A DNA stretch of 64,000 nt from Algorimicrobium algoritergicola (GTDB taxonomy: Bacteria > Bacteroidota > Bacteroidia > Flavobacteriales > Flavobacteriaceae): NCBI RefSeq assembly GCF_008086165.1, contig NZ_VSKL01000001.1:868001-932000 (forward strand), given 5' to 3'. This document shows, piece after piece, positions 13,728 to 56,460 of this stretch (the stretch's first letter is position 1; each line of letters begins with the position of its first letter). A program made the translations under genes and the position numbers. The notes below the pieces were generated by a model that had not been told where the DNA came from, ran no database searches, and saw only the letters and a program-made list of their open reading frames with translations.

Positions 13728-14372
13728 TTACAAAGCTTTTGCAATAACAACCGTATTTGTTTGATTTACTTTTTTGTGAACATCCACTTGATAGATATGC
13801 GATTTTAAATAACTGATAATATGCTCCAGTTTTTGAGAAAGCTCTTTTTCTAGCGAGGCATTAAATAAAATAGATCCACTGGCAGATTTGCGTTTCAGAA
13901 TTGTCTCCCAAAATGATAAATCTAGAAATTGTGCTGGAACCATGAGGTCTATAAACAAATCGATGATGATGAGGTCGAAAGTATCTGATGTGTTTTCAAT
14001 ATAATGCAGTGCATCATCACATATGATGTTTAAATTTTTAGAAGTTTCAATCTGAAATTCATTCTTCGCAATGGCTATTATTTGTGGATCAATATCTACG
14101 GCTGTAATTTGATTTTGGTATTTAAAATCTTTTCTAAGTGTTTCAATAACACTGCCACCACCAAGACCTAAAACAAGAATGGAATTTACATTTTTAAGGT
14201 CTAGTTTCTCCAAACCAAACTTTAAAATGCGCTGTAATGAACCATAAGAATAATTTGCGTTTTTGGAATTCAAATGTTTTTTTCCGTTGTACCAAGTAAT
14301 TTCTAACGTGCCGTTGATTTCCGATTTTATTTTTTTGGTAATAGGATATAAATAGCTTAAAAGTTTTGCCAT
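13728..14372 (-). CDS. Spermidine-synthase-like SAM-fold protein
   Basis: 214 aa Rossmann-fold protein with motif I VLGLGGGSVIETL (about 66-78), AVDIDPQIIAIA (about 93-104), a CDDALHYIEN loop and FDLIIIDLF. This is the pattern of spermidine synthases and their stand-alone relatives. The N-terminal beta domain of true spermidine synthase is only partly present and the protein is short, so polyamine synthesis is not certain; a methyltransferase role is possible. It is about 90 bp downstream of the polyketide operon on the same strand and could be read through from it. Confidence 0.7.
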   Translation of the reverse strand: MAKLLSYLYPITKKIKSEINGTLEITWYNGKKHLNSKNANYSYGSLQRILKFGLEKLDLKNVNSILVLGLGGGSVIETLRKDFKYQNQITAVDIDPQIIAIAKNEFQIETSKNLNIICDDALHYIENTSDTFDLIIIDLFIDLMVPAQFLDLSFWETILKRKSASGSILFNASLEKELSQKLEHIISYLKSHIYQVDVHKKVNQTNTVVIAKAL

Positions 14373-14462
14373 GGTTGTAAAGGTAGTGCTTTTACGTTGT
14401 TGATTACTGCTTTAATTTTTTGGGTGAAATAGTCTTTAAGTGTACAATCCGTTTCTAAAATT

Positions 14463-15035
14463 TCAATTTAAAATGGAATAACTGGCATATTTTCCATGAT
14501 GCGATAATGAAAATGAAATGTCTAAATCGATATCCTTGTCAAACAATCTTGGTACACCTGCACCTGATTTTCTAATGGAAAGAACTTCAACATTTAAACC
14601 GTTTTCAACTGAAAAGTCTTTTATAAACTCTTGTTTTAGTAAAGCACTCTGTTTTTCAGTAGTCATTCCAGCCAGATTAAAAACACCATTTTTTACTTCA
14701 TCATCTTGCTTTTTAGCGACACTAAAAATATAATCGGTATTACTAATCGTTTCTGTTTTTAAAATAATTGATTCTATTGAAACTTCACCATAACCTGACT
14801 TTAAACTACATTCTAATCTTCTCGGATTGTAAAATGGTTTGCCACCAGCTTGAATAAAAACTTTATAAGCACTTTCTTTCATACTCCATAATTGCCAAAC
14901 GATTAAAAATGAATTATCAGAAACTGCAATGATGTGTTGTTCTTTTTCAGTAAAAATCTTCTTCAAAAAACCGGATCTTTTCCAGTTTGTTGTGCGCATT
15001 GTTTCTTGAAGGTCTATGATATCATTTCCAATCAT
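14463..15035 (-). CDS. 4'-phosphopantetheinyl transferase
   Basis: Has the superfamily motifs GNDIIDL (3-9) and WSMKESAYK (50-58; catalytic/Mg-binding Glu and Lys). It transfers 4'-phosphopantetheine from CoA to the conserved Ser of a carrier protein. Its start codon overlaps the stop of the acyl carrier protein gene by one base, so the adjacent carrier is its likely substrate. It is the last gene of the eight-gene polyketide operon. 190 aa, somewhat shorter than Sfp-type enzymes. Confidence 0.88.
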   Translation of the reverse strand: MIGNDIIDLQETMRTTNWKRSGFLKKIFTEKEQHIIAVSDNSFLIVWQLWSMKESAYKVFIQAGGKPFYNPRRLECSLKSGYGEVSIESIILKTETISNTDYIFSVAKKQDDEVKNGVFNLAGMTTEKQSALLKQEFIKDFSVENGLNVEVLSIRKSGAGVPRLFDKDIDLDISFSLSHHGKYASYSILN

Positions 15036-15292
15036 TATTTTTCGGAAACTTTTTGGTTTATAATTTCTAAAGCAGCTTTTACATTCAGCATTTTATCCAT
15101 GGATTCATTATCGAATACAATGTCATATTTGTCTTCGATATCTAAAATTACATCAATAAGATTGGCCGAATTTATTTTTAAATCATTGATAAAATCCGTT
15201 CCTTCATGCATGTTTTCAAAACCTTTTTCGTCTTGAATGTAGGGTTTCACTATCAATTTTAGTTCTGCAATCATTTTATCTTTATCACGCAT
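15035..15292 (-). CDS. Acyl carrier protein of the polyketide operon
   Basis: 85-aa acidic helical protein of the phosphopantetheine-binding family. The attachment Ser is S42 in KINSANLIDVILDIEDKYDI; the usual Asp before this Ser is Asn, which marks it as a specialised carrier, distinct from the fatty-acid AcpP. It overlaps both neighbours by one base (ketosynthase upstream, phosphopantetheinyl transferase downstream), a sign of translational coupling. It probably carries the acyl chain made by the operon's ketosynthase, dehydratase and reductase. Confidence 0.87.
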   Translation of the reverse strand: MRDKDKMIAELKLIVKPYIQDEKGFENMHEGTDFINDLKINSANLIDVILDIEDKYDIVFDNESMDKMLNVKAALEIINQKVSEK

Positions 15293-16560
15293 TATTTTCT
15301 ATATTTTTTAAATATTAAACAGCCATTAACATCTCCAAAACCAAAACTTGCTTTGGCAACGATATTAATGTCTGTTTCAATTAATTTTTGAGGTATTTTT
15401 TCTGCTGAAATTAAACTGGTTATTTCTTCATTTAAATCTTCACAATTAATATTTGGAAAGATGAAATTATGGTGAATTTGTAAAACACTTGCCACACTTT
15501 CAATGGCTCCAGAAGCAGATAAACAATGACCAACCATAGATTTTAGCGAATTAATGTATGGAAAATCATGGCCTTTTAAGTTCAACGCTTCCGACCAGTT
15601 TTCTATCTCCGTAAAATCTTTAATCGTAGCGGTTAAATGACCATTAATGGCGTCAATTTCTTCTGCGCGGATTTTAGAATTTTCAAGGGCTTTTTTAATA
15701 CAACGTTGAACGGCTTCAGAATTAGGAGCCGTCATGGAACCGCCAGCTCTTTGTCCTCCAGAATTAACGTCTCCACCTAGAATTTCCGCATAAATGGTGG
15801 CATTCCGTTCCAAGGCACTTTCTAAAGATTCTAAAACCATAGCGCCAGCACCACTTCCAGGCACAAAACCCGAAGCCGAAGCACTCATGGGTCTTGAGCC
15901 GGATTCTGGCGATTCATTATGTTTGTACGTTAAGACACGCATGGCATCAAATCCGCCCCAAACATAAGGGCCTTCGTCGCTTGTTCCACCAACAATCATA
16001 CGTTTGGCGCGACCTGCTTTTATACGATCAAATCCCATTAAAATGGCTTCTGTTCCTGTAGTACATGCGGAAGAATTTGTGGTGACTTGATTTCCCAAAC
16101 CTAAAATTCCGCCTAGATATGCGCTGACTCCACTCACCATGGTTTGTGGAACAACAGTACTTCCTAAACGTCTAACTTGCTTATCGTCTAATTTATAAAT
16201 GGCTTCTCTAAATTTTTCAACTCCCGAAGTTCCGGCTCCAAAAATGGTTCCGCTGTCAAAATCTGTTTGGTCCAAAATTGAAAGTCCAGCGTCTTTCCAA
16301 GCATCCATTCCAGCCATGCAGCCATATAAAATTCCTGAACTATTAAAATCTCGGAGTTGTAATTCGGTTAAATATTCGCGTTTTAAGGCTTCTGAAACGT
16401 TTGGCTTTCCGCCAATACAACAGGAAAAACCAAGCGCTTTTAATTCGGGATAAAATGCAATTCCTGACGTTCCATTTTTTATGGCTTTTGTAAAGTCGGC
16501 CAGTCCAACTCCGTTGGGAGAAACAACACCAAGTCCAGTTATTACGACTCTATTTTCCAT
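15292..16560 (-). CDS. Beta-ketoacyl-ACP synthase (FabF-type)
   Basis: Thiolase-fold condensing enzyme of about 422 aa from the ATG at 16560 (MENRVVITGLG); the frame is open to 16584 but this start matches the family. The Cys-His-His triad is complete: Cys in NSSACTTG, His in NGHLTAT and His in MVGHCLSASG. It is thus an active decarboxylating elongating synthase, not a chain-length factor. With the neighbouring dehydratase, reductase and ACP it could build or extend the acyl starter used by the type III PKS. Confidence 0.9.
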   Translation of the reverse strand: MENRVVITGLGVVSPNGVGLADFTKAIKNGTSGIAFYPELKALGFSCCIGGKPNVSEALKREYLTELQLRDFNSSGILYGCMAGMDAWKDAGLSILDQTDFDSGTIFGAGTSGVEKFREAIYKLDDKQVRRLGSTVVPQTMVSGVSAYLGGILGLGNQVTTNSSACTTGTEAILMGFDRIKAGRAKRMIVGGTSDEGPYVWGGFDAMRVLTYKHNESPESGSRPMSASASGFVPGSGAGAMVLESLESALERNATIYAEILGGDVNSGGQRAGGSMTAPNSEAVQRCIKKALENSKIRAEEIDAINGHLTATIKDFTEIENWSEALNLKGHDFPYINSLKSMVGHCLSASGAIESVASVLQIHHNFIFPNINCEDLNEEITSLISAEKIPQKLIETDINIVAKASFGFGDVNGCLIFKKYRK

Positions 16561-16584
16561 ATTAATTATTATTTCAGATTTCAA

Positions 16585-17031
16585 TTAAGTCATTTTTCCT
16601 GCTATCATTCCGGCAATTTTACCTCTACAAACCAATTCATTTTTTATATTAAACATGTCGACTTTACATTTCAATTTATTGAATCGAAAGTATTCTTTTT
16701 CACTTTTTACAAAAACCTTTTCACCTGGAAAAACAGGTTTAAAAAAATCTATTTCTGATGATGTTAAGGCAATTTGAATATCATTCATTGTTTCTCCCGA
16801 TTTATTCATCAGGTAAATGCCGAATGAAACCAATCCAATTTGTGCCATAGTTTCCGTTAAAATGACGCCTGGTGTTACTGGGTTATTTATAAAATGGCCT
16901 TTATAAAAGTCACTTGAAGCATGAAACGTATAGGTTCCAGAAATTCCATTTTCGTCAATCTCCAAAAGTTCATCCACAAAAAGAAAAGGTTTTTGGTATG
17001 GGAGTTTTGCTATAATGTCTTCACCTGTCAT
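16585..17031 (-). CDS. FabZ-like 3-hydroxyacyl-ACP dehydratase
   Basis: 148-aa hotdog-fold protein with the FabZ active-site segment GHFINNPVTPGVILTETMAQ, which contains the catalytic His and Glu. It dehydrates 3-hydroxyacyl-ACP to enoyl-ACP. Located 10 bp after the SDR gene and 24 bp before the ketosynthase gene in the operon, it is a dedicated copy separate from the lipid-synthesis fabZ expected elsewhere. Confidence 0.87.
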   Translation of the reverse strand: MTGEDIIAKLPYQKPFLFVDELLEIDENGISGTYTFHASSDFYKGHFINNPVTPGVILTETMAQIGLVSFGIYLMNKSGETMNDIQIALTSSEIDFFKPVFPGEKVFVKSEKEYFRFNKLKCKVDMFNIKNELVCRGKIAGMIAGKMT

Positions 17032-17041
17032 AATATTATAA

Positions 17042-17842
17042 TTAGCTTAAATGTTCGCCACCATTCACTTGGATTGTAATGCCATTAATCCATTTGGATT
17101 CTTCTTTGATTAATAAATAAACCACATTGGCAACATCTTCGGGTTTGGTAAGTCTGTGGAATGGATTTCGTTTTATAGTGTATTCTGCTAGTTTTTCACT
17201 GCCAGGAATCATTCGGAAAGATGCCGTGTCTGTCACGCCAGCTTCAATGCAATTGGATTTAATTCCATATTCTGCAAATTCCAATGCTATATTTCTTGAA
17301 ATGGCCTCCAAGGCAACTTTAGCTGCGGAAACAGCGGCATAATTCTTCCAAGCTTTTTTGTTTCCTTCGCTTGTAAAACTGATAATTCTGGCGTCTTCTG
17401 CGAATAAGTTTTTACTAAAAACGTGCTTTGTCCAATCGTATAAACTAAACGCCATATTTTCGAGCGTAATATGAAAATCATCATTTTGAAGTTCTTTATT
17501 TCCGTCAGAAACCATGGGTTTTAAATTTCCTTTTGCAATACTGTGAACCAAGCATTTTACTTTTCCAGATTCTTGAAAATTTTCTTCTAATTTCGTAAGA
17601 ATAATTTCTCTGTTTTCTGGTTTAACAACGTCTTTATTAAAATGAATTAATTTGATGTTATGTAATGAGACGATGGCTTTAAATTCGGATTCAATGCTTT
17701 CCATATCGCTTCGTAAGGCGCGATAAACCAAACATAGATTCATGCCTTCTTTGGCGAGTTTTTTAGCGGTTGCTAATCCCATTCCACTGGAAGCACCCAA
17801 AATGATTGCCCATTCGTTTTTATTTTCAAATTCTCTTACCAT
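17042..17842 (-). CDS. FabI/FabL-like short-chain reductase (probable enoyl-ACP reductase)
   Basis: 266-aa SDR with an N-terminal GASSGMG nucleotide motif (16-22). The catalytic residues are spaced Y168-x6-K175 (NYAAVSAAK), the pattern of FabI/FabL enoyl reductases; ketoreductases have Y-x3-K. The LVHSIAKGN segment also resembles HSIGFAP of FabI. I therefore read it as an NAD(P)H-dependent enoyl-ACP reductase that completes an acyl cycle with the neighbouring ketosynthase and dehydratase. Its start overlaps the type III PKS stop by 7 bp. General annotation tools may call it a 3-oxoacyl reductase. Confidence 0.82.
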   Translation of the reverse strand: MVREFENKNEWAIILGASSGMGLATAKKLAKEGMNLCLVYRALRSDMESIESEFKAIVSLHNIKLIHFNKDVVKPENREIILTKLEENFQESGKVKCLVHSIAKGNLKPMVSDGNKELQNDDFHITLENMAFSLYDWTKHVFSKNLFAEDARIISFTSEGNKKAWKNYAAVSAAKVALEAISRNIALEFAEYGIKSNCIEAGVTDTASFRMIPGSEKLAEYTIKRNPFHRLTKPEDVANVVYLLIKEESKWINGITIQVNGGEHLS

Positions 17843-18888
17843 TTTATTAATAATCTTTGTGCTGTAAAACCAGGCCCAAAACTTAACATCAATCCTATAT
17901 CTCCTTTTTGGGGGTTTTGTTCCATAAACCGCTCAAGAACATAAAGAACTATAGCACTGGACATGTTTCCGTAGTCTTTTAAAACGCCTTTTGTGTTGTC
18001 TATATTTTTTCCTAAAGCACCAAATAATTCTTCAATAGTTTGCACAATTTTCTTGCCGCCTGGATGAAAAATTAGATGATCCACATTTTTAATATCTAAC
18101 CCATTTCGCTCTAAAAAAGGATGAACAATCATAGGGAAATGCGCAGCGATTTTTTCAGGAACTTCTTTATCTAAAACCATTTGAAGTCCGGTGTTTTTCA
18201 ATTCAAAACCCATCATATGTTCCGCATTGTAAAAGTGATACATGGCATCATCTATGATTTTTGGACCTTGTTCATTTTCGTATGACGATAGAATGGTACA
18301 AGCGCATCCATCTCCAAAAATAGCAGCGCTTACAATGTTGACCATTGAATAATCATCAATTTGAAATGTGGAAGTGGGCGATTCTACAGCAATTACCACA
18401 GCGCGTTTATTTGGATTGGCTTTAAGGAAATTATAGGCATAAATCATCCCGGAAATTCCAGCTACGCAACCCATTTCAGTTACTGGAAGTCTAACGATGT
18501 CCTGTTTCATATTCAATTTATTAATTAAATACGCATCTACAGATGGAATCATGATACCTGTGCAACTTACCGTAATAATATAATCAATATCTGTCGCTTT
18601 TAATTTCGCTTTATCTAACGCTTTGGTCAATGCACTTTCTGCGAGTTTTATAGTTTCACGCTTATAAATAGCATTTTTTTCTTCAAAGGATGTTTTCAGA
18701 AACACCTCTTCAGGCTCCATGATTGAGTAGCGTCTATCCACGCCTGCATTTTCGAAAAGCTTAATAACTTTCCGTTGATAGCGTTCCTCTTGACCGTTTA
18801 ACCAAACTTTTAGAAAAGGTATTATTTCTTCAGTAGTTCTGGTATATTTCGGGAGTTGTGTGGCTACAGATGTTATTTTTACGCTCAT
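17836..18888 (-). CDS. Type III polyketide synthase (chalcone/stilbene synthase family)
   Basis: 350 aa from the ATG at 18888, which overlaps the methyltransferase stop as ATGA. The catalytic triad is C141 (EMGCVAG), H275 (FHPGGKK) and N308 (GNMSSA), which separates it from FabH (KAS III). Type III enzymes condense an acyl starter with several malonyl units and cyclise the product to resorcinols, phloroglucinols or pyrones. The surrounding fatty-acyl genes suggest a long-chain starter, hence an alkylresorcinol or alkylpyrone. Product chemistry cannot be read from sequence. Confidence 0.92.
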   Translation of the reverse strand: MSVKITSVATQLPKYTRTTEEIIPFLKVWLNGQEERYQRKVIKLFENAGVDRRYSIMEPEEVFLKTSFEEKNAIYKRETIKLAESALTKALDKAKLKATDIDYIITVSCTGIMIPSVDAYLINKLNMKQDIVRLPVTEMGCVAGISGMIYAYNFLKANPNKRAVVIAVESPTSTFQIDDYSMVNIVSAAIFGDGCACTILSSYENEQGPKIIDDAMYHFYNAEHMMGFELKNTGLQMVLDKEVPEKIAAHFPMIVHPFLERNGLDIKNVDHLIFHPGGKKIVQTIEELFGALGKNIDNTKGVLKDYGNMSSAIVLYVLERFMEQNPQKGDIGLMLSFGPGFTAQRLLIKW

Positions 18889-19592
18889 GATTTTTGTATT
18901 ATCCATTGGTATCTAAATGCCCAATGCCAACTTATGGTACTTTTGTGTTTAATTTCTTTTGAAAATCGTTCTAAATCCTTCCTTTTAAATGCTCTTAAAA
19001 TGGATAACAAACCGTCATTTTTGGTCATATCATTTTTGATACCTAATGTGACTAATTTAAAGAGATAATAGGCTAATCTGTGACGGTGTAAGTCGTTAAC
19101 TAAAATACCCATTTTAGCATTTTTTAGAAGCGTTTGAAGTAAATTTAGTGCAACTTTATCATCAAAGTGATGTAAAAACAAGGTGCACATGGCAATATCA
19201 TAGGTATGTGTTTTAAATTCTTCGGTTAGAATATCTTCTTTTATAAATGCTATTTCTGGATAATTGGTAGCTAATTGGTTGGCATAATCAATGGTCGCTT
19301 GATTGGCATCAACGCCTATTAATTTGAAGGTATAACCATTTTCTCTGCCATAGTCAGCCACTTTTCGCAGCATATCACCACTACCGCAGCCTAAATCAAT
19401 AATGCTTATGGTTTTATCTTTTGGCTGATCTTCTAAAATTTTCTTGAGCCCATTGAGGGTTACCTGATTTCCACCTAATAATTTATTAATGGTCGCCAAT
19501 TGGTCTAGTGCATCAATCAAAACCTCGCCCGATAAATCGAGATCATCCATAATTTCAATGGTATGGCTTCTATATTTGGTGTCTACAAGCAT
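18885..19592 (-). CDS. Class I SAM-dependent methyltransferase of the polyketide operon
   Basis: 235 aa with SAM motif I IIDLGCGSGDML (about 82-93), acidic motif GVDANQATIDYA and LFLHHFDD. It overlaps the flavoprotein gene by 1 base and the type III PKS by 4. Type III PKS operons in other bacteria (for example srsABC of Streptomyces) also pair the synthase with a methyltransferase and a flavoprotein, so methylation of the polyketide is the likely job; O- versus C-methylation is not determinable here. Confidence 0.85.
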   Translation of the reverse strand: MLVDTKYRSHTIEIMDDLDLSGEVLIDALDQLATINKLLGGNQVTLNGLKKILEDQPKDKTISIIDLGCGSGDMLRKVADYGRENGYTFKLIGVDANQATIDYANQLATNYPEIAFIKEDILTEEFKTHTYDIAMCTLFLHHFDDKVALNLLQTLLKNAKMGILVNDLHRHRLAYYLFKLVTLGIKNDMTKNDGLLSILRAFKRKDLERFSKEIKHKSTISWHWAFRYQWIIQKS

Positions 19593-20719
19593 TATAATTC
19601 GGGTTTCATTGGTTTTCCGTGTGTGCTTTTTATGATGCTTGGCAACATAAAGCGGAAGGCTCTTAAAAATACCATAATTATTTCAGAAAAAACACCCTGT
19701 TTGAATAAGCTTGCTATTAAATGTCCAGATCGTAATCTGGCATTAAATTCTTTGTTCCAAATTTGTGTGTATTGTTTTTCTAATTCGGTTCGCGATTTTA
19801 TATTACCAGATTGATAGTTTAGAATTTTTAATGATACCATTTGAGCGGCTCGAATGGCCATACTCATGCCATTTCCTGCCAAAGGGTGAATCATGCCTGC
19901 GCTATCTCCACACATTAAAATATGATTTTCTACAGGTTGCTTGGATGAAAAGGATATTTGACTAATGGATAACGGATTATCAAAAGTCATTTCAAAACTT
20001 TCAAAAACGTTTTTCAAATACGTGTTTTTGCTTAATACGCTCTGCTGAAAATCGTTGATGTTTTTGTGTTTCTTAAACGATTTATAATCGGCTATATAAC
20101 ACACATTTACTAAATCGGTTTCCACTTTTGAAATCCCACAATAACCGCCTTTAAAATTATGCAACGCGACCATGTTTTCTGGAAAGTCACCCTTATAATG
20201 CGCTTTAACACCTAAAAATGGCGTTGGTTTTTGAATAAAGGCACGATTCATATTAATATCTAAATTGGATCGTTTTCCAAAGGCACCAATAACAAATTCT
20301 GCCTTTAATTGTTTTTCTTCATTGGTATAAACCGTAAACTGATTATCCTCAAACTGAATATCCACGACTTTTTCATGTAGAATTTCAGTGCCATATTTTT
20401 TGGCGAGTTTGGATAATTCCCAATCCATGCTGTAACGACTCATGCCAAATCCGCCAAAAGGTAATTTGGTACTGATGGATTGATTTTTAGGTGTACTTAA
20501 TGTAAACTGATTGATTTTTTTAGCGCCAAAAGCGAAAGGATTAAAACCTAAAGCTTGCAAATAGGGAAGGACTTCATTTGAAATATATTCACCACACACT
20601 TTGTGCTTTGGGTATTTATTCTTCTCTATTAGAAGCACCGAAAGTCCCTTTTTTGATAAATGCGCAGCACTCGTTAATCCGGCTAATCCACCACCAACTA
20701 TAATTACATTGTAGGTCAT
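19592..20719 (-). CDS. FAD-dependent oxidoreductase / hydroxylase of the polyketide operon
   Basis: 375 aa from the ATG at 20719 (MTYNVIIVGGGLAGL; GxGxxG FAD motif). A second FAD motif, CGDSAGMIHPLAGNGMSMAI, is typical of group A flavin monooxygenases and geranylgeranyl-reductase-like enzymes. First gene of the eight-gene operon. By analogy with SrsC-type flavoproteins it may hydroxylate the phenolic product, which could then oxidise to a quinone. The frame continues to 20770, but the N-terminal Rossmann strand fixes the start. Confidence 0.85.
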   Translation of the reverse strand: MTYNVIIVGGGLAGLTSAAHLSKKGLSVLLIEKNKYPKHKVCGEYISNEVLPYLQALGFNPFAFGAKKINQFTLSTPKNQSISTKLPFGGFGMSRYSMDWELSKLAKKYGTEILHEKVVDIQFEDNQFTVYTNEEKQLKAEFVIGAFGKRSNLDINMNRAFIQKPTPFLGVKAHYKGDFPENMVALHNFKGGYCGISKVETDLVNVCYIADYKSFKKHKNINDFQQSVLSKNTYLKNVFESFEMTFDNPLSISQISFSSKQPVENHILMCGDSAGMIHPLAGNGMSMAIRAAQMVSLKILNYQSGNIKSRTELEKQYTQIWNKEFNARLRSGHLIASLFKQGVFSEIIMVFLRAFRFMLPSIIKSTHGKPMKPEL

Positions 20720-20987
20720 TATTGGCTGTTTGTTTTTTGTATGCTTTTCTAAAATAGGACATAAATCCAAAAAGCCCTATTATTCTTACGGTAAGATAAA
20801 ATAATTTAAGATAGTGTTGCTTGGTTTTTGATTATTAAATAATCATTCCCATAAATCAGTTTTTTTATTATCTTCATAAATAAAGTTTGTATTTTATGTA
20901 AAGGTTGATGGCTGTTTTTCGTTAAGGTCCTAAAGTAGTTAAATTTGGGTGAAAGTAAAGATTCAGTAGTAAATCTAATTTTTTTCG

Positions 20988-20995
20988 TATATTTG
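20988..20995 (+). promoter_or_regulatory. Predicted promoter of the AbiF leader RNA, -7 box TATATTTG
   Basis: Exact match to TAnnTTTG, with GC directly after it as often seen. It places the transcript start near 21000, immediately before the leader hairpin. No clear -33 element was identified. Confidence 0.55.
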
Positions 20996-20998
20996 CAT

Positions 20999-21058
20999 TA
21001 ACATGCTTACCCCGCTTCCCGTTAAGATCAGCGCGCTCAGGGTAAGCTTTTTACTTTT
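20999..21058 (+). ncRNA. Structured leader RNA upstream of the AbiF-type gene (abiF RNA candidate)
   Basis: GCTTACCC (21005-21012) and GGGTAAGC (21040-21047) form a perfect 8-bp stem enclosing a GC-rich 27-nt interior, followed by TTTTTACTTTT and then the AbiF start codon at 21061. The interior (CGCTTCCCGTTAAGATCAGC and on) is far richer in G+C than the surroundings, as expected for a constrained RNA. A conserved 'abiF RNA' upstream of abiF genes has been described by comparative genomics; the position and size here fit. Whether this sequence matches that model was not tested. Alternatives are a terminator or attenuator in the abiF 5' leader. Confidence 0.55.
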
Positions 21059-21060
21059 CT

Positions 21061-21957
21061 ATGGCTAAAATTCCTTATAATAAGCCAGCTTTAACCTATG
21101 CTGAACAAGTTATTCAATTACAAGACAGAGGTCTTGAAATTCTTAATTTAGATAGGGCTTATCATTTATTAGAAAGTATTAGTTATTATAGACTTAGTGG
21201 TTATTGGTATCCCATGCTTATAGATAAATCAAATCATAAGTTTAAACCGAATTCTACTTTTCAAAGTGCATTCGATATTTATTGTTTTGATAGAAAATTT
21301 AGGATTTTAATTCTTCAAGAATTAGAGAAGATTGAAGTTTCTATAAGAGCCAAAATGATATATGTTCTGTCACATGAATATGGGGCTTTTTGGTATCAGG
21401 ACTCTTCATACTTCAAAAATCATATAAAACATAGTAAAAGTTTAGGAAGCTTACAAAGTGAGTTTAAAAGAAGTGATGAGGAATTCATAGAGGCTTATGC
21501 AGATAAATATTCCGATCCTTTGCCACCAAGTTGGATGATGCTAGAGATTACGTCGTTTGGAACGATGTCGTTTTTATATAGTAATTTAAAAGGAGGGAGA
21601 ACAAAAAGAGTTGTTGCAAATTATTTTGGACTTAATGATAAAACTTTCGTGTCTTGGATGCATAGTATTGTTTACTTAAGAAATGTTTGTGCACATCATT
21701 CTAGATTATGGAATAGAACCATGAGTATTCAGCCAATTAAGCCGCAATCAACATCAAAAAGATGGTTGGAGGATGACAGTGTCAGTAACAAAAAAGTTTA
21801 TTATATATTATCCATGATTTTGTTTTTAATGCAAACAATAAATCCAAAAAACACTATTGTTTCAAGGTTTAAAGCCTTACTTGATGAATATAAATGCATA
21901 GACGTTCGTGCTATGGGATTTCCAGAATCATGGGAGGATGAGCATTTATGGAAGTAA
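21061..21957 (+). CDS. AbiD/AbiF (Abi_2) family HEPN abortive-infection protein
   Basis: 298 aa, all-helical, with the Abi_2 signatures YHLLESISYYRLSGYWYP (about 34-51), FDIYCFDRKFRILILQELEKIE and the C-terminal YLRNVCAHHSRLWNR. The last contains R207-N-x3-H212, the RxxxxH motif of HEPN ribonucleases. Abi_2 proteins act in phage defence by abortive infection. The gene stands alone on the plus strand between two minus-strand housekeeping or biosynthetic genes, directly behind a structured leader RNA, and has no protein antitoxin beside it. That arrangement suggests an RNA-controlled toxin; the mechanism is inference. Confidence 0.88.
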   Translation: MAKIPYNKPALTYAEQVIQLQDRGLEILNLDRAYHLLESISYYRLSGYWYPMLIDKSNHKFKPNSTFQSAFDIYCFDRKFRILILQELEKIEVSIRAKMIYVLSHEYGAFWYQDSSYFKNHIKHSKSLGSLQSEFKRSDEEFIEAYADKYSDPLPPSWMMLEITSFGTMSFLYSNLKGGRTKRVVANYFGLNDKTFVSWMHSIVYLRNVCAHHSRLWNRTMSIQPIKPQSTSKRWLEDDSVSNKKVYYILSMILFLMQTINPKNTIVSRFKALLDEYKCIDVRAMGFPESWEDEHLWK

Positions 21958-22020: not shown

Positions 22021-23019
22021 TTAATCATTCCCATAAATGAGATTTAAGAAATCAGTCGTTTCTAAATCGCCAAAATATTCTTTAACAGACAGATTTTTTA
22101 ATGCCTTTGTGATTTCAACTTTATCATAAGGCACACCAATAAGTAAGCTTTCAATGTCTGAAACGGGTTTTCTACCAAAGAAATCGCCAAAGACTTTAAA
22201 TTCCGAAATATGGCCCTTTTCAACAAAAATGCGCAAATCAATTTCACCAACAGGAAAACGTTTGTTTTTTTGAATATTAGATTTAGGCGATCGTCCAAAA
22301 TTCCAATCCCATAAATCATATTTCTCGGCTTTCAGTCTATGAACCGCTTGCCATTCCGCTTCCGTTAATTTGTAGGTTTCAAAAGGTTCACTGGCTTCAT
22401 ATAATCCAACGAGTAGCTGATTTTTAAAAGCTTCCATAGATAGGGGTGTTTTTAAAAATTCGCTAATATTAGCCACGCGACTTCTTACCGATTTATGACC
22501 TTTAGATTCTATTTTGCTCATTTTTACTTGAAGCGCTTTTGTCACTTCGCTCATATCTGTATCAAATAAAAGCGTACCATGACTAATCATCCGTTTTCCT
22601 GTAGAAAACTGCGCAGTTCCAGAAATTTTCTTCTCGTTTACCAAAATATCATTTCGGCCTTTTAGTTCAGCAGAAACGCCCATATCATTTAAAACCCGAA
22701 TAACTGGTGCTGTAAATTTTTTAAAGTTGCTAATACTTTTCCCATCATGATTGGTAATAAAACTAAAGTTTAAATTTCCTAAATCATGATAAACGGCTCC
22801 ACCTCCTGAAATACGACGAACCACATGAATGTTTTGTGCATCAATATATTCATGGTTAATTTCTTCCAAGGTATTTTGGTTTCTTCCAATAATAATGGAT
22901 GGCTCGTTGATGTAAAACAGCAAATAATCTGTGGAAGTATCAAAATGCCTTAAGGCATATTCTTCTAAAGCTAGGTTTAGTTTTGGATTGGTGTGGCCTT
23001 CATTGTCTATGAAAATCAT
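22021..23019 (-). CDS. lplA: Lipoate-protein ligase
   Basis: 332 aa. The biotin/lipoate ligase domain carries GRNQNTLEEIN and the lipoate-binding motif RRISGGGAVYHDLGNLNFSF, followed by ISGTAQ and RMISHGTLLF. The C-terminal accessory domain of LplA is present (about 245-332). It activates lipoate with ATP and attaches it to E2 and H proteins. It begins at an ATG 26 bp downstream of a good promoter and stands alone. Confidence 0.93.
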   Translation of the reverse strand: MIFIDNEGHTNPKLNLALEEYALRHFDTSTDYLLFYINEPSIIIGRNQNTLEEINHEYIDAQNIHVVRRISGGGAVYHDLGNLNFSFITNHDGKSISNFKKFTAPVIRVLNDMGVSAELKGRNDILVNEKKISGTAQFSTGKRMISHGTLLFDTDMSEVTKALQVKMSKIESKGHKSVRSRVANISEFLKTPLSMEAFKNQLLVGLYEASEPFETYKLTEAEWQAVHRLKAEKYDLWDWNFGRSPKSNIQKNKRFPVGEIDLRIFVEKGHISEFKVFGDFFGRKPVSDIESLLIGVPYDKVEITKALKNLSVKEYFGDLETTDFLNLIYGND

Positions 23020-23235: not shown

Positions 23236-23253
23236 TGTTATATGCTGTTCTAG
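23234..23253. repeat. Cassette-boundary-like repeat, copy 1
   Basis: TTTGTTATATGCTGTTCTAG lies at the 3' end of the DUF4365 gene and includes its TAG stop. It resembles the repeat at 24473-24499 (TGTTTTATATACGTTGTTG and on) in sequence and in position relative to the upstream gene. Confidence 0.4.
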
Positions 23254-24359
23254 GTTAACATTTCTTCCAAATTCTTCGAGAAGTTTTCAGATAAACTATT
23301 GGCTAATTTAAATTCCTCCATAATTTGATTTATTGAGTTTATCATTTTCAGTCTTGCTTTCTTTAAATGAAAATATTCTGTTGGTAATGAGGATACTTCA
23401 TTTCTAAAATGTATCATAGCATCAATTGAGTCTTGTAATTCTGGAATCAAAGAATTTATAGTATCCAAAGTTTCTTGTAATGATTTATAGTTTTGATTTA
23501 GCTCGAAATCTATAAGAGTAAGTTTTTCATAAGCTCTAAATCCTTCTGAAAAATAATCAGCGAAGTCATCAATTCTAACGTTTAGTTTAATTGCTACATT
23601 GTTTAAGTATTCTGCATATGTTTTTATCGTACGAACAAGTCTTTTATCTTTTTTAGTGACTTTCATTCTAGCAAATTCGTTTATTTTTTCAGTTAGCTGA
23701 TTAGTTTCTGTTCCAAGATTTTCTATTATTTCAGTCATGTCATTTAGAATAAATCCTGCTTCATCAATAGATTTAGATTCTTCAATTATTTCGTCAATTT
23801 GTGTTGTTGATATGTCTTGTTTTATAAAAGATTTTATGAAATCGTCTTGAACTTCATTTTTGAGGATTTTTGTGAGTTCTAATTTTGAATCTTTATTTAA
23901 CTCTTTGTCTTTTGGAATGTTTAATTTCCACTGTGTTCCAGTTTTAATTAAAGTATTTTCACTAATTAATTCCCATAATGTTTCTTCGCTTTCTGGCAAA
24001 TGTGCTATTAGTATAATTGGCAGATTTAAATTAGTCCAATAATGATAATGGATTTTAGAAACATAAAGAGTTAAATGAGTTTTGGCATCATGAAAATTCC
24101 CAAGACCAGTTTTAATTTGTGTAGCAAGGAACTGTCCTGTTGGATTACTTTCAATAACTTCTTCCGTAAGTGCATCAATTCCAACATCAACAATAGGTTG
24201 TTCTCGGAATATCCAATTTAATTCTTTTGTGAAAATTAAAGCGGAAACGTAAACTCCTGTTCTATCTGTATTGGTTACTCTCAATTTTTGAATTGCATAT
24301 AACGGTCTTGTATATGAAACGTAGTGCAGAAAATAAGCAGTTTCGTTTCGGTTAAACAC
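23250..24359 (-). CDS. DUF4365 domain protein with long C-terminal coiled-coil
   Basis: The N-terminal part (about 35-165) matches DUF4365, a PD-(D/E)xK-like fold: LNWIFREQPIVDVGIDALTEE supplies D58 and D62, and the core QxK is Q81-I-K83 (ATQIKTG), followed by YHYWTNLNLPIILIAH. The C-terminal 200 residues are charged, helical and probably coiled-coil. DUF4365 domains are frequent in defence islands and mobile genes; nuclease activity is plausible but unproven. It sits in an accessory stretch between repeat copies. No partner gene was recognised. Confidence 0.7.
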   Translation of the reverse strand: MFNRNETAYFLHYVSYTRPLYAIQKLRVTNTDRTGVYVSALIFTKELNWIFREQPIVDVGIDALTEEVIESNPTGQFLATQIKTGLGNFHDAKTHLTLYVSKIHYHYWTNLNLPIILIAHLPESEETLWELISENTLIKTGTQWKLNIPKDKELNKDSKLELTKILKNEVQDDFIKSFIKQDISTTQIDEIIEESKSIDEAGFILNDMTEIIENLGTETNQLTEKINEFARMKVTKKDKRLVRTIKTYAEYLNNVAIKLNVRIDDFADYFSEGFRAYEKLTLIDFELNQNYKSLQETLDTINSLIPELQDSIDAMIHFRNEVSSLPTEYFHLKKARLKMINSINQIMEEFKLANSLSENFSKNLEEMLT

Positions 24360-24795: not shown

Positions 24796-25371
24796 TTATT
24801 GTCCACTTTTCTTTCCGAAATTGGGTTTTAGTTTTTCCCAAAGTTGCTGTTCTATTAGCTCAACCAACACTTGGTCTATTCGTATTTTAGATTGATGCTC
24901 AACTTTATAAATATTCACAATCAAATCGTAGTTCATATTTTTGTCCCATTTAGATAAGTGCATACTATAAACTCTTGTTCCTCTTGTCCCGAAATGATTT
25001 TTTAGTCGAGAGTAAAAATCGGTTGTTGAACTACCAACATATAGAAATCTTGAATTGGTTTTATTATACCTTGAAACATTTACTCGGTCTTTATTCTTGA
25101 CCTTTAATTTATTGAGTTCACAAAAATCTTCGAATTTGCGAAGTAGTTCTGATAGCTTTTTTCTTTGTTTTAACTCAATAGTATAAATCAATGCTAATTT
25201 ACTTTTATCAACCTTTTTAATTTTGGAATTTAGTATTTCTCGATTTCTAAATTCTGATGAATTGAATTCAACCGTTTGTTTTTTTGATATTGTAATTTCC
25301 CCTAAAGCAGATTTTAAACTATCTAAATAATTGTCTGTTTCAAAAAGTATGTTAGGTAGATTGATGTTCAT
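24796..25371 (-). CDS. GIY-YIG-like domain protein, accessory
   Basis: 191 aa. The C-terminal half looks like a divergent GIY-YIG nuclease domain: ALIYTIEL (about 60-67), SRFLYVGSSTTDFYSRLKNHFG (about 107-128) with the expected Arg, and a late ELIEQQLWEKLKPNFGKKSG that could supply the Glu. The N-terminal 60 residues are unlike anything I know. It is flanked by the inverted boundary repeats at 24473 and 25380 and looks like a single-gene insert. The nuclease call is tentative. Confidence 0.55.
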   Translation of the reverse strand: MNINLPNILFETDNYLDSLKSALGEITISKKQTVEFNSSEFRNREILNSKIKKVDKSKLALIYTIELKQRKKLSELLRKFEDFCELNKLKVKNKDRVNVSRYNKTNSRFLYVGSSTTDFYSRLKNHFGTRGTRVYSMHLSKWDKNMNYDLIVNIYKVEHQSKIRIDQVLVELIEQQLWEKLKPNFGKKSGQ

Positions 25372-56246: not shown

Positions 56247-56384
56247 GTATAAAAAAACAACGGATTAGTTTACATCAAATATATGAAACCTAAACATGAA
56301 CTCCAGGTTTTCAATTCAAGCAATTATGTGTGCCAGCGATTACGCGCCCATTCTTAATTTGATAAATAAGAACTCATGATTGCT

Positions 56385-56460
56385 TTGCAGTTGAAACGGC
56401 ATCCTTTTCTTTTTTTAGAAAAAAAGAAAAGATAAAGTGGATAGCGCGACCTTTATGGTA
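56385..56460. other. Candidate structured RNA or dispersed intergenic element
   Basis: CTTTTCTTTTTTT (56404-56416) and AAAAAAAGAAAAG (56419-56431) form a perfect 13-bp stem with a 2-nt loop, bracketed by non-AT-rich blocks GCAGTTGAAACGGCATCC and ATAAAGTGGATAGCGCGACC. I recall similar block-hairpin-block arrangements in other flavobacterial intergenic regions, possibly a described RNA motif such as Flavo-1; not tested. It lies between the dehydrogenase start and the mgtE stop. Confidence 0.4.

Follow-up and report, generated by a model that had tools for sequence, protein, structure and literature searches.

We find that an abiF gene in the 64,000-nt stretch of Algorimicrobium algoritergicola DNA analyzed here (the window; contig NZ_VSKL01000001.1, positions 868,001 to 932,000 of the forward strand) is preceded by a conserved structured RNA (window positions 20998–21053) that is tied to this AbiF family, and that many phages carry this RNA in the absence of AbiF. 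The second observation goes beyond a preliminary description of the locus made from the sequence alone. In kind, the host locus is almost certainly AbiF with its cognate RNA, an RNA-controlled toxin similar to type III toxin-antitoxin systems; inhibition in trans rests on relatives. As the overall explanation we favor an RNA-controlled AbiF toxin with an added layer of phage decoys, which we consider likely. The locus contains the following features.

20840–20856, no strand: left-hand member of a pair of 17-bp direct repeats, TAATCATTCCCATAAAT (a repeat of this length arises in none of 200 shuffles)
20988–20995, plus strand: -7 box TATATTTG, read directly
20998–21053, plus strand: AbiF-associated RNA (AbiFr-like), the extent of the match to our RNA model R1 (79.6 bits)
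21005–21012, plus strand: 5' arm of helix P1, GCTTACCC (direct read, folding, alignment)
21013–21016, plus strand: 5' arm of helix P2, CGCT (paired in 16 of 16 sequences, with one G-C to C-G swap)
21017–21029, plus strand: conserved single-stranded loop, TCCCGTTAAGATC (6 of the 18 invariant columns)
21030–21033, plus strand: 3' arm of helix P2, AGCG (alignment)
21034–21039, plus strand: unpaired linker CGCTCA between P2 and P1 (alignment)
21040–21047, plus strand: 3' arm of helix P1, GGGTAAGC, pairing with GCTTACCC (direct read, folding, alignment)
21048–21052, plus strand: T run TTTTT directly 3' of P1, read directly
21061–21957, plus strand: abiF, encoding an Abi_2-family HEPN protein of 298 aa (ORF, PF07751, PADLOC and PDB match)
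21679–21696, plus strand: codons of the RNxxxH motif in the abiF product, R207-N-V-C-A-H212 (RNVCAH)
22022–22038, no strand: right-hand member of the 17-bp repeat pair, located at the lplA 3' end (same shuffle test)

Judged on the window sequence alone, the evidence for the RNA is weak. The motif TAnnTTTG, which we take to be the Bacteroidota -7 box consensus, has 98 matches in the window with 108 expected, and the 60-nt stretch folds with a z-score of -2.2 (10 of 200 shuffles fold equally well). The 79.6-bit score is not independent, since the window RNA is one of the 16 sequences from which R1 was built. It is the comparison with homologues that decides. P1 and the T run, which ends 8 nt 5' of the abiF start codon (ATG at 21061, read directly from the window), may form an intrinsic terminator that sets the inferred end of the RNA; a consensus terminator scan, limited to loops of 3–8, does not list them. 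The preliminary description had placed a -7 box at 20988–20995 and a stem at 21005–21012/21040–21047 followed by a T run, all of which held, and it had overlooked the inner helix P2 (21013–21016 with 21030–21033). It had further predicted a discrete RNA of 55–60 nt; there are no RNA-seq data, and a separate RNA is only inferred at the window locus.

The abiF product matches Abi_2 (PF07751) with an E-value of 2.4e-58 (197.9 bits against a cut-off of 25.6, covering the whole 184-position profile) and the PADLOC model AbiD with an E-value of 2.2e-79. Arg-207, Asn-208, and His-212 of the RNVCAH motif are invariant across 18 aligned AbiF proteins, an alignment from which loci L010, L012, L014, and L016 were left out. 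The Abi_2 assignment and the RNxxxH motif at R207/H212 had been recognized before and are confirmed here. The absence of an adjacent protein antitoxin had been noted as well, and the ORF list contains no other sizeable ORF in the insert besides abiF. The sole strong PDB match is 8VZ6, deposited as ‘Abi family protein’ (E 1.4e-70, 296 of 298 residues aligned). This entry represents PbAbiF with the non-coding RNA AbiFr, which inhibits a single-strand-specific RNase with one RNA per monomer, as summarized in a review (PMC12737573). AbiF is considered an ancestor of Cas13 (PMC12737573, PMC12373285), and ancestral Cas13 is the subject of a Science paper (PMC12165695). We infer, mostly from characterized relatives, that the window protein is a HEPN RNase that is toxic and aborts infection.

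A scan of 84,980 species genomes returned 16 loci encoding AbiF relatives. We excluded L016, which is truncated at a contig end and lacks the abiF start; the 15 loci used encode proteins of 37–85% identity. The same RNA is found directly 5' of abiF in all 15 homologous loci that include the gene start. In an alignment of 16 sequences including the window (A1), standard pairs fill 95.8% of the pair cells and 7 of the 12 pairs are altered on both sides, neither value being reached in any of 500 shuffles, and the number of further pair types is unremarkable (reached by 127 of 500 shuffles). P1 changes to TTACTC/GAGTAA in L006, to GGCCACCC/GGGTGGTC in L012, and to GTCCACCC/GGGTGGAC in L014, where P2 is also exchanged from CGCT/AGCG to CCCT/AGGG. 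The 18 invariant columns fall into the loop (6), P2 (6), the leader (3), the linker (1), P1 (1), and the T run (1), and we regard the loop as a candidate protein-contact region, the contact itself being an inference. A -7 box lies within 25 nt 5' of the RNA in 14 of the 18 host-linked copies examined, at an identical offset in 13 of them. We accept the RNA as real because the homologous loci share it with compensatory changes. The preliminary description had suggested looking for such changes in close homologues, and they are found exactly in the stem it named; its proposal that the hairpin is the cognate RNA of AbiF is likewise supported by the linkage in 15 of 15 loci, by the covariation, and by 8VZ6 (PMC12737573).

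In two of the homologous loci, abiF is broken as assembled, by a stop at codon 16 in L010 and by an out-of-frame gene in L014, with the RNA intact; these are possibly decayed toxins or else assembly errors. A second RNA copy upstream of the AbiF-linked one is seen in L083 (844–898 and 1424–1478, the same places as L032:731–785 and 1311–1365) and in L007 (1100–1154), at distances of about 580 nt and 1.8 kb.

No Rfam family reaches its gathering score at the RNA, either in the window or in any of the 15 homologous loci. The abiF RNA model RF03085, which the preliminary description had put forward as a check, fails at its gathering score and finds nothing in 20780–21120 even at an E-value of 10. 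The Rfam matches that do appear in this interval at E ≤10 (a mycoplasma frameshift element, S414, and six others) are far under their gathering scores and were dismissed as chance. Elsewhere in the window, a Flavo-1 RNA (RF01705) exceeds its gathering score at 56377–56455. In 296 genomes of the phylum, RF03085 occurs in two, one of them over the cut-off and both before AbiF genes; R1, built from A1, is weak at one of these sites (L027, E 0.24) and absent from the other (L042). R1 itself finds 49 places in 35 of the 296 genomes, and PF07751 finds 42 places, fragments included, in 33. PF07751 lies no more than 450 nt downstream in the same orientation for 26 of the 49 RNAs; conversely, 26 of the 42 PF07751 places are preceded by an RNA in this way. 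We thus assign the window RNA to a class distinct from RF03085, because R1 precedes 26 of the 42 Abi_2 places and RF03085 only 2. The R1-type RNA is the commonest AbiF RNA in our phylum sample, a sister of RF03085, and missing from Rfam 15. The Cell 2025 study of AbiF had its own covariance models (PMC12804078), which possibly cover this class already.

Comparison with RF03085 itself shows that both of its hits in the phylum precede Abi_2 genes and that the two-helix layout is similar by eye, whereas the loop sequence differs. AbiF-Cd/RCd22 from Clostridioides difficile has, like the window locus, an Abi_2 toxin with an RNA gene directly upstream and structured hairpins (PMC12373285), but RCd22 comprises two RF03085 motifs and a separate terminator, whereas the window has a single RNA copy that RF03085 does not recognize. 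The AbiF/RNA family has been described largely from Bacillota and Pseudomonadota (PMC12373285). PbAbiF resembles the window protein across the 296 aligned residues noted above; among the loci compared it is closest to an AbiF carrying an RF03085-type RNA, and we therefore infer that AbiFr probably belongs to the sister class, the AbiFr sequence not having been compared. With type III toxin-antitoxin systems the locus shares a structured RNA directly upstream of the toxin gene, the separate RNA in the window being inferred; it differs from them in that their antitoxin is usually a tandem repeat, whereas the window genome has one R1 match under stricter filters.

A referee may object that the hairpin is purely a cis-acting attenuator or leader of the abiF mRNA and that no trans-acting RNA exists. 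Its position speaks for this, with P1 and the T run immediately 5' of the start codon and the leader arrangement kept in 15 of 15 homologous loci. We nevertheless regard a cis-only role as very improbable: the distribution of invariant columns, with one in P1 and most in the loop, P2, and leader, is the opposite of what a plain terminator would show; stand-alone copies exist without a gene to attenuate (see below); and the RNA of a relative works in trans, as RCd22 neutralizes AbiF-Cd in cis and in trans through direct binding (PMC12373285). That the window RNA inhibits AbiF by direct binding is an analogy drawn from relatives only (PMC12373285, PMC12737573).

RNA and abiF together form an insert bounded by the 17-bp direct repeat, which copies the 3' end of lplA. 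In three genus-mates (G001, G003, and G004), the FAD oxidoreductase gene and lplA are adjacent and the abiF cassette is missing; in two others (G002 and G005), at least one of the neighbor genes is not clearly present, so that they are uninformative. We conclude that RNA and abiF constitute a mobile cassette inserted at the lplA site. The ORF list contains no recombinase gene in the insert. A 45-bp repeat bounds the cassette in L007, and among the other 14 loci tested for direct repeats none is clearly above shuffles. Beyond lplA, a DUF4365 protein with a partial PADLOC match to the restriction-like Aga is encoded at 23250–24359, and a weak GIY-YIG match is found at 24796–25371; these are possibly further defense genes. 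The run of minus-strand genes at 13728–20770 is taken to resemble an aryl polyene or flexirubin pigment cluster, of which only the last gene was scanned.

The RNA is also found on its own in virus contigs. Four exact-pattern scans of IMG/VR, with the loop and P2 fixed, yielded at least 169 loci, and the counts given here are lower bounds. R1 accepted 143 of them, all with E ≤0.009 except L161 (E 0.022, partial, model positions 9–48). The remaining 26 have no accepted match, with L104 and L114 partial at E 0.017 and 0.088, and are excluded from all counts. L087 and L107, each with at most 4 bp of P1, are weak members. PF07751 searches of the whole virus records, run in four sets, matched 1 of 20, 0 of 43, 0 of 40, and 0 of 40, which leaves 142 of the 143 records without a match and L085 as the sole virus record carrying AbiF. 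The records range from 4 to 226 kb and many are fragments, so that the absence of Abi_2 is not proof.

By their proteins, the contigs have a viral appearance. PHROGs assigned six of ten proteins, taken from ten contigs, to terminase, portal, endolysin, or tail families, one to a helicase and two to families of unknown function, with no match for the last. The L091 terminase shares 43–44% identity with its best phage matches, which are mostly crAss-like. For the L178 terminase, phages of Bacteroides and Flavobacterium rank at the top, and Pseudomonas phages are the most numerous (171 of 223). The L135 chaperonin best matches an unassigned phage, with Flavobacterium phages ranking next; the most frequent among its 264 matches are phages of Vibrio (88) and Flavobacterium (73). 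We infer that the hosts of the RNA-bearing contigs are mainly Bacteroidota.

Since the scans fixed the loop and P2, the conservation of the viral loop and the closeness of the viral RNAs to host RNAs are partly built in; P1, the leader, and the placement are independent of the search. Complete flanks are available for 138 orphans, among which there are 97 unique RNAs and 61 distinct P1 arms; 84% of these arms form at least 7 bp, compared with a mean of 6.8% and a maximum of 19.7% when arms are swapped among loci (1000 trials). P1 has 6 bp or fewer in 10 of the 61, including L090 (3 bp), which lies within a tRNA array. In an alignment of 63 phage RNAs (A3), 92.6% of the cells pair, 11 of the 12 pairs are altered on both sides, and the covariation is 0.570 versus 0.165 after shuffling; this alignment was fitted to the model and therefore leans toward it. 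The top P1 pair is missing in 35 of 61 rows. The covariation in P1 indicates that the fold of the orphan RNAs is maintained by selection. A pseudoknot between the loop CCC and a P1 GGG, suggested by L006, was rejected as a family feature because the top of P1 varies in phage RNAs that keep the CCC, the retention of which is itself built in, as CCC belonged to the viral search pattern.

For 98 unique phage RNAs, the nearest host-linked RNA is spread across 14 of the 22 compared, so that counterparts of several AbiF-linked subtypes exist in phages (median identity 82%, a value raised by the search pattern). An ORF follows on the same strand within 400 nt in 106 of the 142 orphans and is missing in 36. 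These 106 ORFs form 47 clusters without a common partner; the largest cluster holds 28, which shows that the virus records are redundant. In L191 and L123, the ORF that follows the RNA gives a weak AbiF-like hit (E 0.001, 67 aa), which was rejected: it aligns with the C-terminal part of AbiF past the HEPN motif, and neither record matches PF07751.

Many of the viral RNAs are located at tRNA genes. ARAGORN finds a tRNA in the examined DNA of 50 of the 143 viral loci. In 47 of these, the distance between RNA and tRNA is at most 200 nt, and the two share a strand in every case (47 of 47). Random positions fall that close to a tRNA in a mean of 9.3 and at most 15 of 143. The core lies 13–15 nt beyond the tRNA 3' end in 30 of the 47, and the leader thus starts at this end or within 1–2 bases of it. 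When identical RNAs are counted once, 35 of 99 have a tRNA, 33 within 200 nt and 33 on the same strand. A tRNA 3' end lies within 20 nt upstream of the core in 19 of these unique RNAs (always at 12–14 nt), a tRNA within 30 nt downstream in 6, and tRNAs on both sides in 3, such that 22 abut a tRNA. The partner tRNAs are varied (Thr, Met, Ser, Ile, Leu, Arg, Pro, Asn). A -7 box at the host position is found in 11 of the 99 (background, 67 of 7150 random positions); tRNA and -7 box never occur together (0 of 99), and 66 of 99 have neither. An AANA leader is present in 18 of 21 tRNA-linked, 7 of 8 boxed, and 49 of 72 other copies; group limits differ slightly in these counts and there is no background, so they are no more than a hint. 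Four contigs (L135, L156, L195, and L199) carry two RNAs close together. By eye, the paired RNAs differ in P2 and linker, and L135 and L156 seem related.

These data bear on the possibility that the orphans are relics of AbiF cassettes that have lost the toxin. Some bacterial copies do adjoin truncated Abi_2 matches, and abiF is disrupted in the assemblies of 2 of the 15 homologous loci. Against a relic stand the pairing of at least 7 bp kept in 84% of the 61 P1 arms, the placement at tRNA 3' ends, and neighboring RNAs of differing make-up, which do not look like debris, and we hold this explanation to be most improbable.

Stand-alone copies are found in bacterial genomes as well: 23 of the 49 R1 RNAs in the phylum sample have no Abi_2 downstream, and 13 of these 23 come from genomes in which Abi_2 has no match at all. 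AbiF is thus perhaps not the sole partner of the RNA. Five of ten such places inspected (L255, L257, L258, L259, and L260) have a restriction/PLD helicase, RloB, HipA, or AAA gene within a few kb by Pfam, and the L261 RNA appears by eye to lie in a type I restriction operon. It is possible that mobile elements use the bacterial orphans to protect themselves in the manner of the phages, or that the RNA has another partner.

An alternative view is that the phage and orphan RNAs serve a different purpose, for example in tRNA arrays, where they might be spacers or aid processing, or as ligands of a phage protein, and that AbiF adopted a pre-existing RNA. In its favor, orphans outnumber AbiF-linked copies by 142 to 1 among the virus records, many viral RNAs are within tRNA arrays, and bacterial orphans adjoin other defense genes (restriction helicase, RloB, HipA). 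Against it, 11 of the 99 unique orphans have a host-type promoter in place of a tRNA, the phage RNAs correspond to several AbiF-linked subtypes (14 of 22 host RNAs), and the 47 downstream ORF clusters reveal no common partner. We consider this explanation unlikely.

The reading we lean toward, with modest confidence, is that phages mainly of Bacteroidota carry these RNAs as decoy antitoxins in counter-defense; the hosts, the binding to AbiF, the release of the RNAs, and the counter-defense itself are inferred. The decoy reading accounts for the maintained fold, for the missing toxin, for placement at tRNAs as well as behind a promoter, and for the diversity of the RNAs, and it has a proven precedent in phage PhiTE and ToxIN. 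Pseudo-ToxI of PhiTE is a phage copy of a type III antitoxin RNA that neutralizes the toxin during infection (PMC3475682). It resembles our orphans as an antitoxin RNA copy on a phage and differs from them in that the PhiTE copies make up a single intergenic repeat locus, which grows when selected for, and in that their effect has been shown, whereas the orphans are solitary RNAs in tRNA arrays. ToxN is not known to belong to the AbiF family. The Racr RNA anti-CRISPRs are likewise solitary phage RNAs that mimic the RNA partner of the host, but they mimic CRISPR repeats, with all CRISPR types except type VI represented (PMC10651486). The criterion for a phage RNA decoy, an RNA without its protein partner on the phage genome, is met in 142 of 143 records, many of them fragments. 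The same RNAs might instead be signals sensed by AbiF, which would displace the host RNA and activate the toxin. For such a trigger it can be said that AbiF, by homology, binds RNAs of this kind and that the sign of the effect is without experimental data; selection would however remove a trigger, yet the phage RNAs keep their structure and are sometimes doubled, and we judge this rival highly implausible. Our literature search, which did not extend to most subscription journals or to the Cell 2025 paper, turned up no account of AbiF RNAs borne by phages that lack AbiF. To our knowledge, no phage answers to AbiF have been described.

Decoy candidates also occur in cultivated phages. A second model, R2, comprises 92 host and phage RNAs. 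Among nine named phages whose records are related to the contigs, it gave an accepted match in one, Cellulophaga phage Calle_1. Its RNA scores 40 bits (E 1.6e-9) and lies exactly between tRNA-Val and tRNA-Arg in a tRNA array. BLASTN with this RNA shows that it is 98–100% conserved in Calle_2, Calle_3, phi38:1, and phi40:1, and in phi38:1 it occupies an unannotated gap from the annotated tRNA-Val to tRNA-Arg. A second, weaker Calle_1 RNA (24.7 bits, L277:1788–1845) directly follows tRNA-Thr and resembles by eye the RF03085-like form of L254; Rfam gives no abiF match at this position. The assignment of the RNA between tRNA-Val and tRNA-Arg is weaker than that of the metagenomic ones because its loop differs from the common loop. 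An AbiF-like protein is encoded in 76 phage records, none of them from a Cellulophaga phage. When the RNAs of the window, L099, L178, and L160 were used as BLASTN queries against 50,697 phage records, the outcome was short chance matches or none. An R2 match in Flavobacterium phage immuto (23 bits) consists of an outer stem and a 4-base loop only and was rejected as a plain terminator.

In the mechanism we propose, one promoter would drive a short RNA comprising P1, P2, the conserved loop, and the linker and ending at the T run (promoter use and RNA end are inferred), and read-through past the T run would yield the abiF mRNA. The RNA would bind the AbiF RNase and keep it inactive, a binding inferred mostly from relatives. 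Phage infection would disturb the balance of RNA and AbiF, and the released RNase would halt the cell. The stand-alone RNAs of phages would bind the AbiF of the host and hold it off; they would be expressed from their own promoter, or within tRNA arrays from which neighboring tRNA processing may cut them free, a release that is inferred.

A bolder reading, which the data in our view favor by a narrow margin, is that RNA-only counter-defense against AbiF is widespread in Bacteroidota phages, in several subtypes and expressed from tRNA arrays or a host-type promoter. If so, the trick of PhiTE against ToxIN would be widespread, with a new delivery route, and some of the unexplained short gaps in phage tRNA arrays would contain antitoxin mimics. 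A tRNA array would then be a joint anti-defense cassette, providing spare tRNAs together with an inhibitor of an RNase that possibly attacks tRNAs. The classical phages of Cellulophaga baltica would already carry such an RNA, and the RNA would serve as a search handle for AbiF counter-defense that can be tested in cultivated phage-host pairs.
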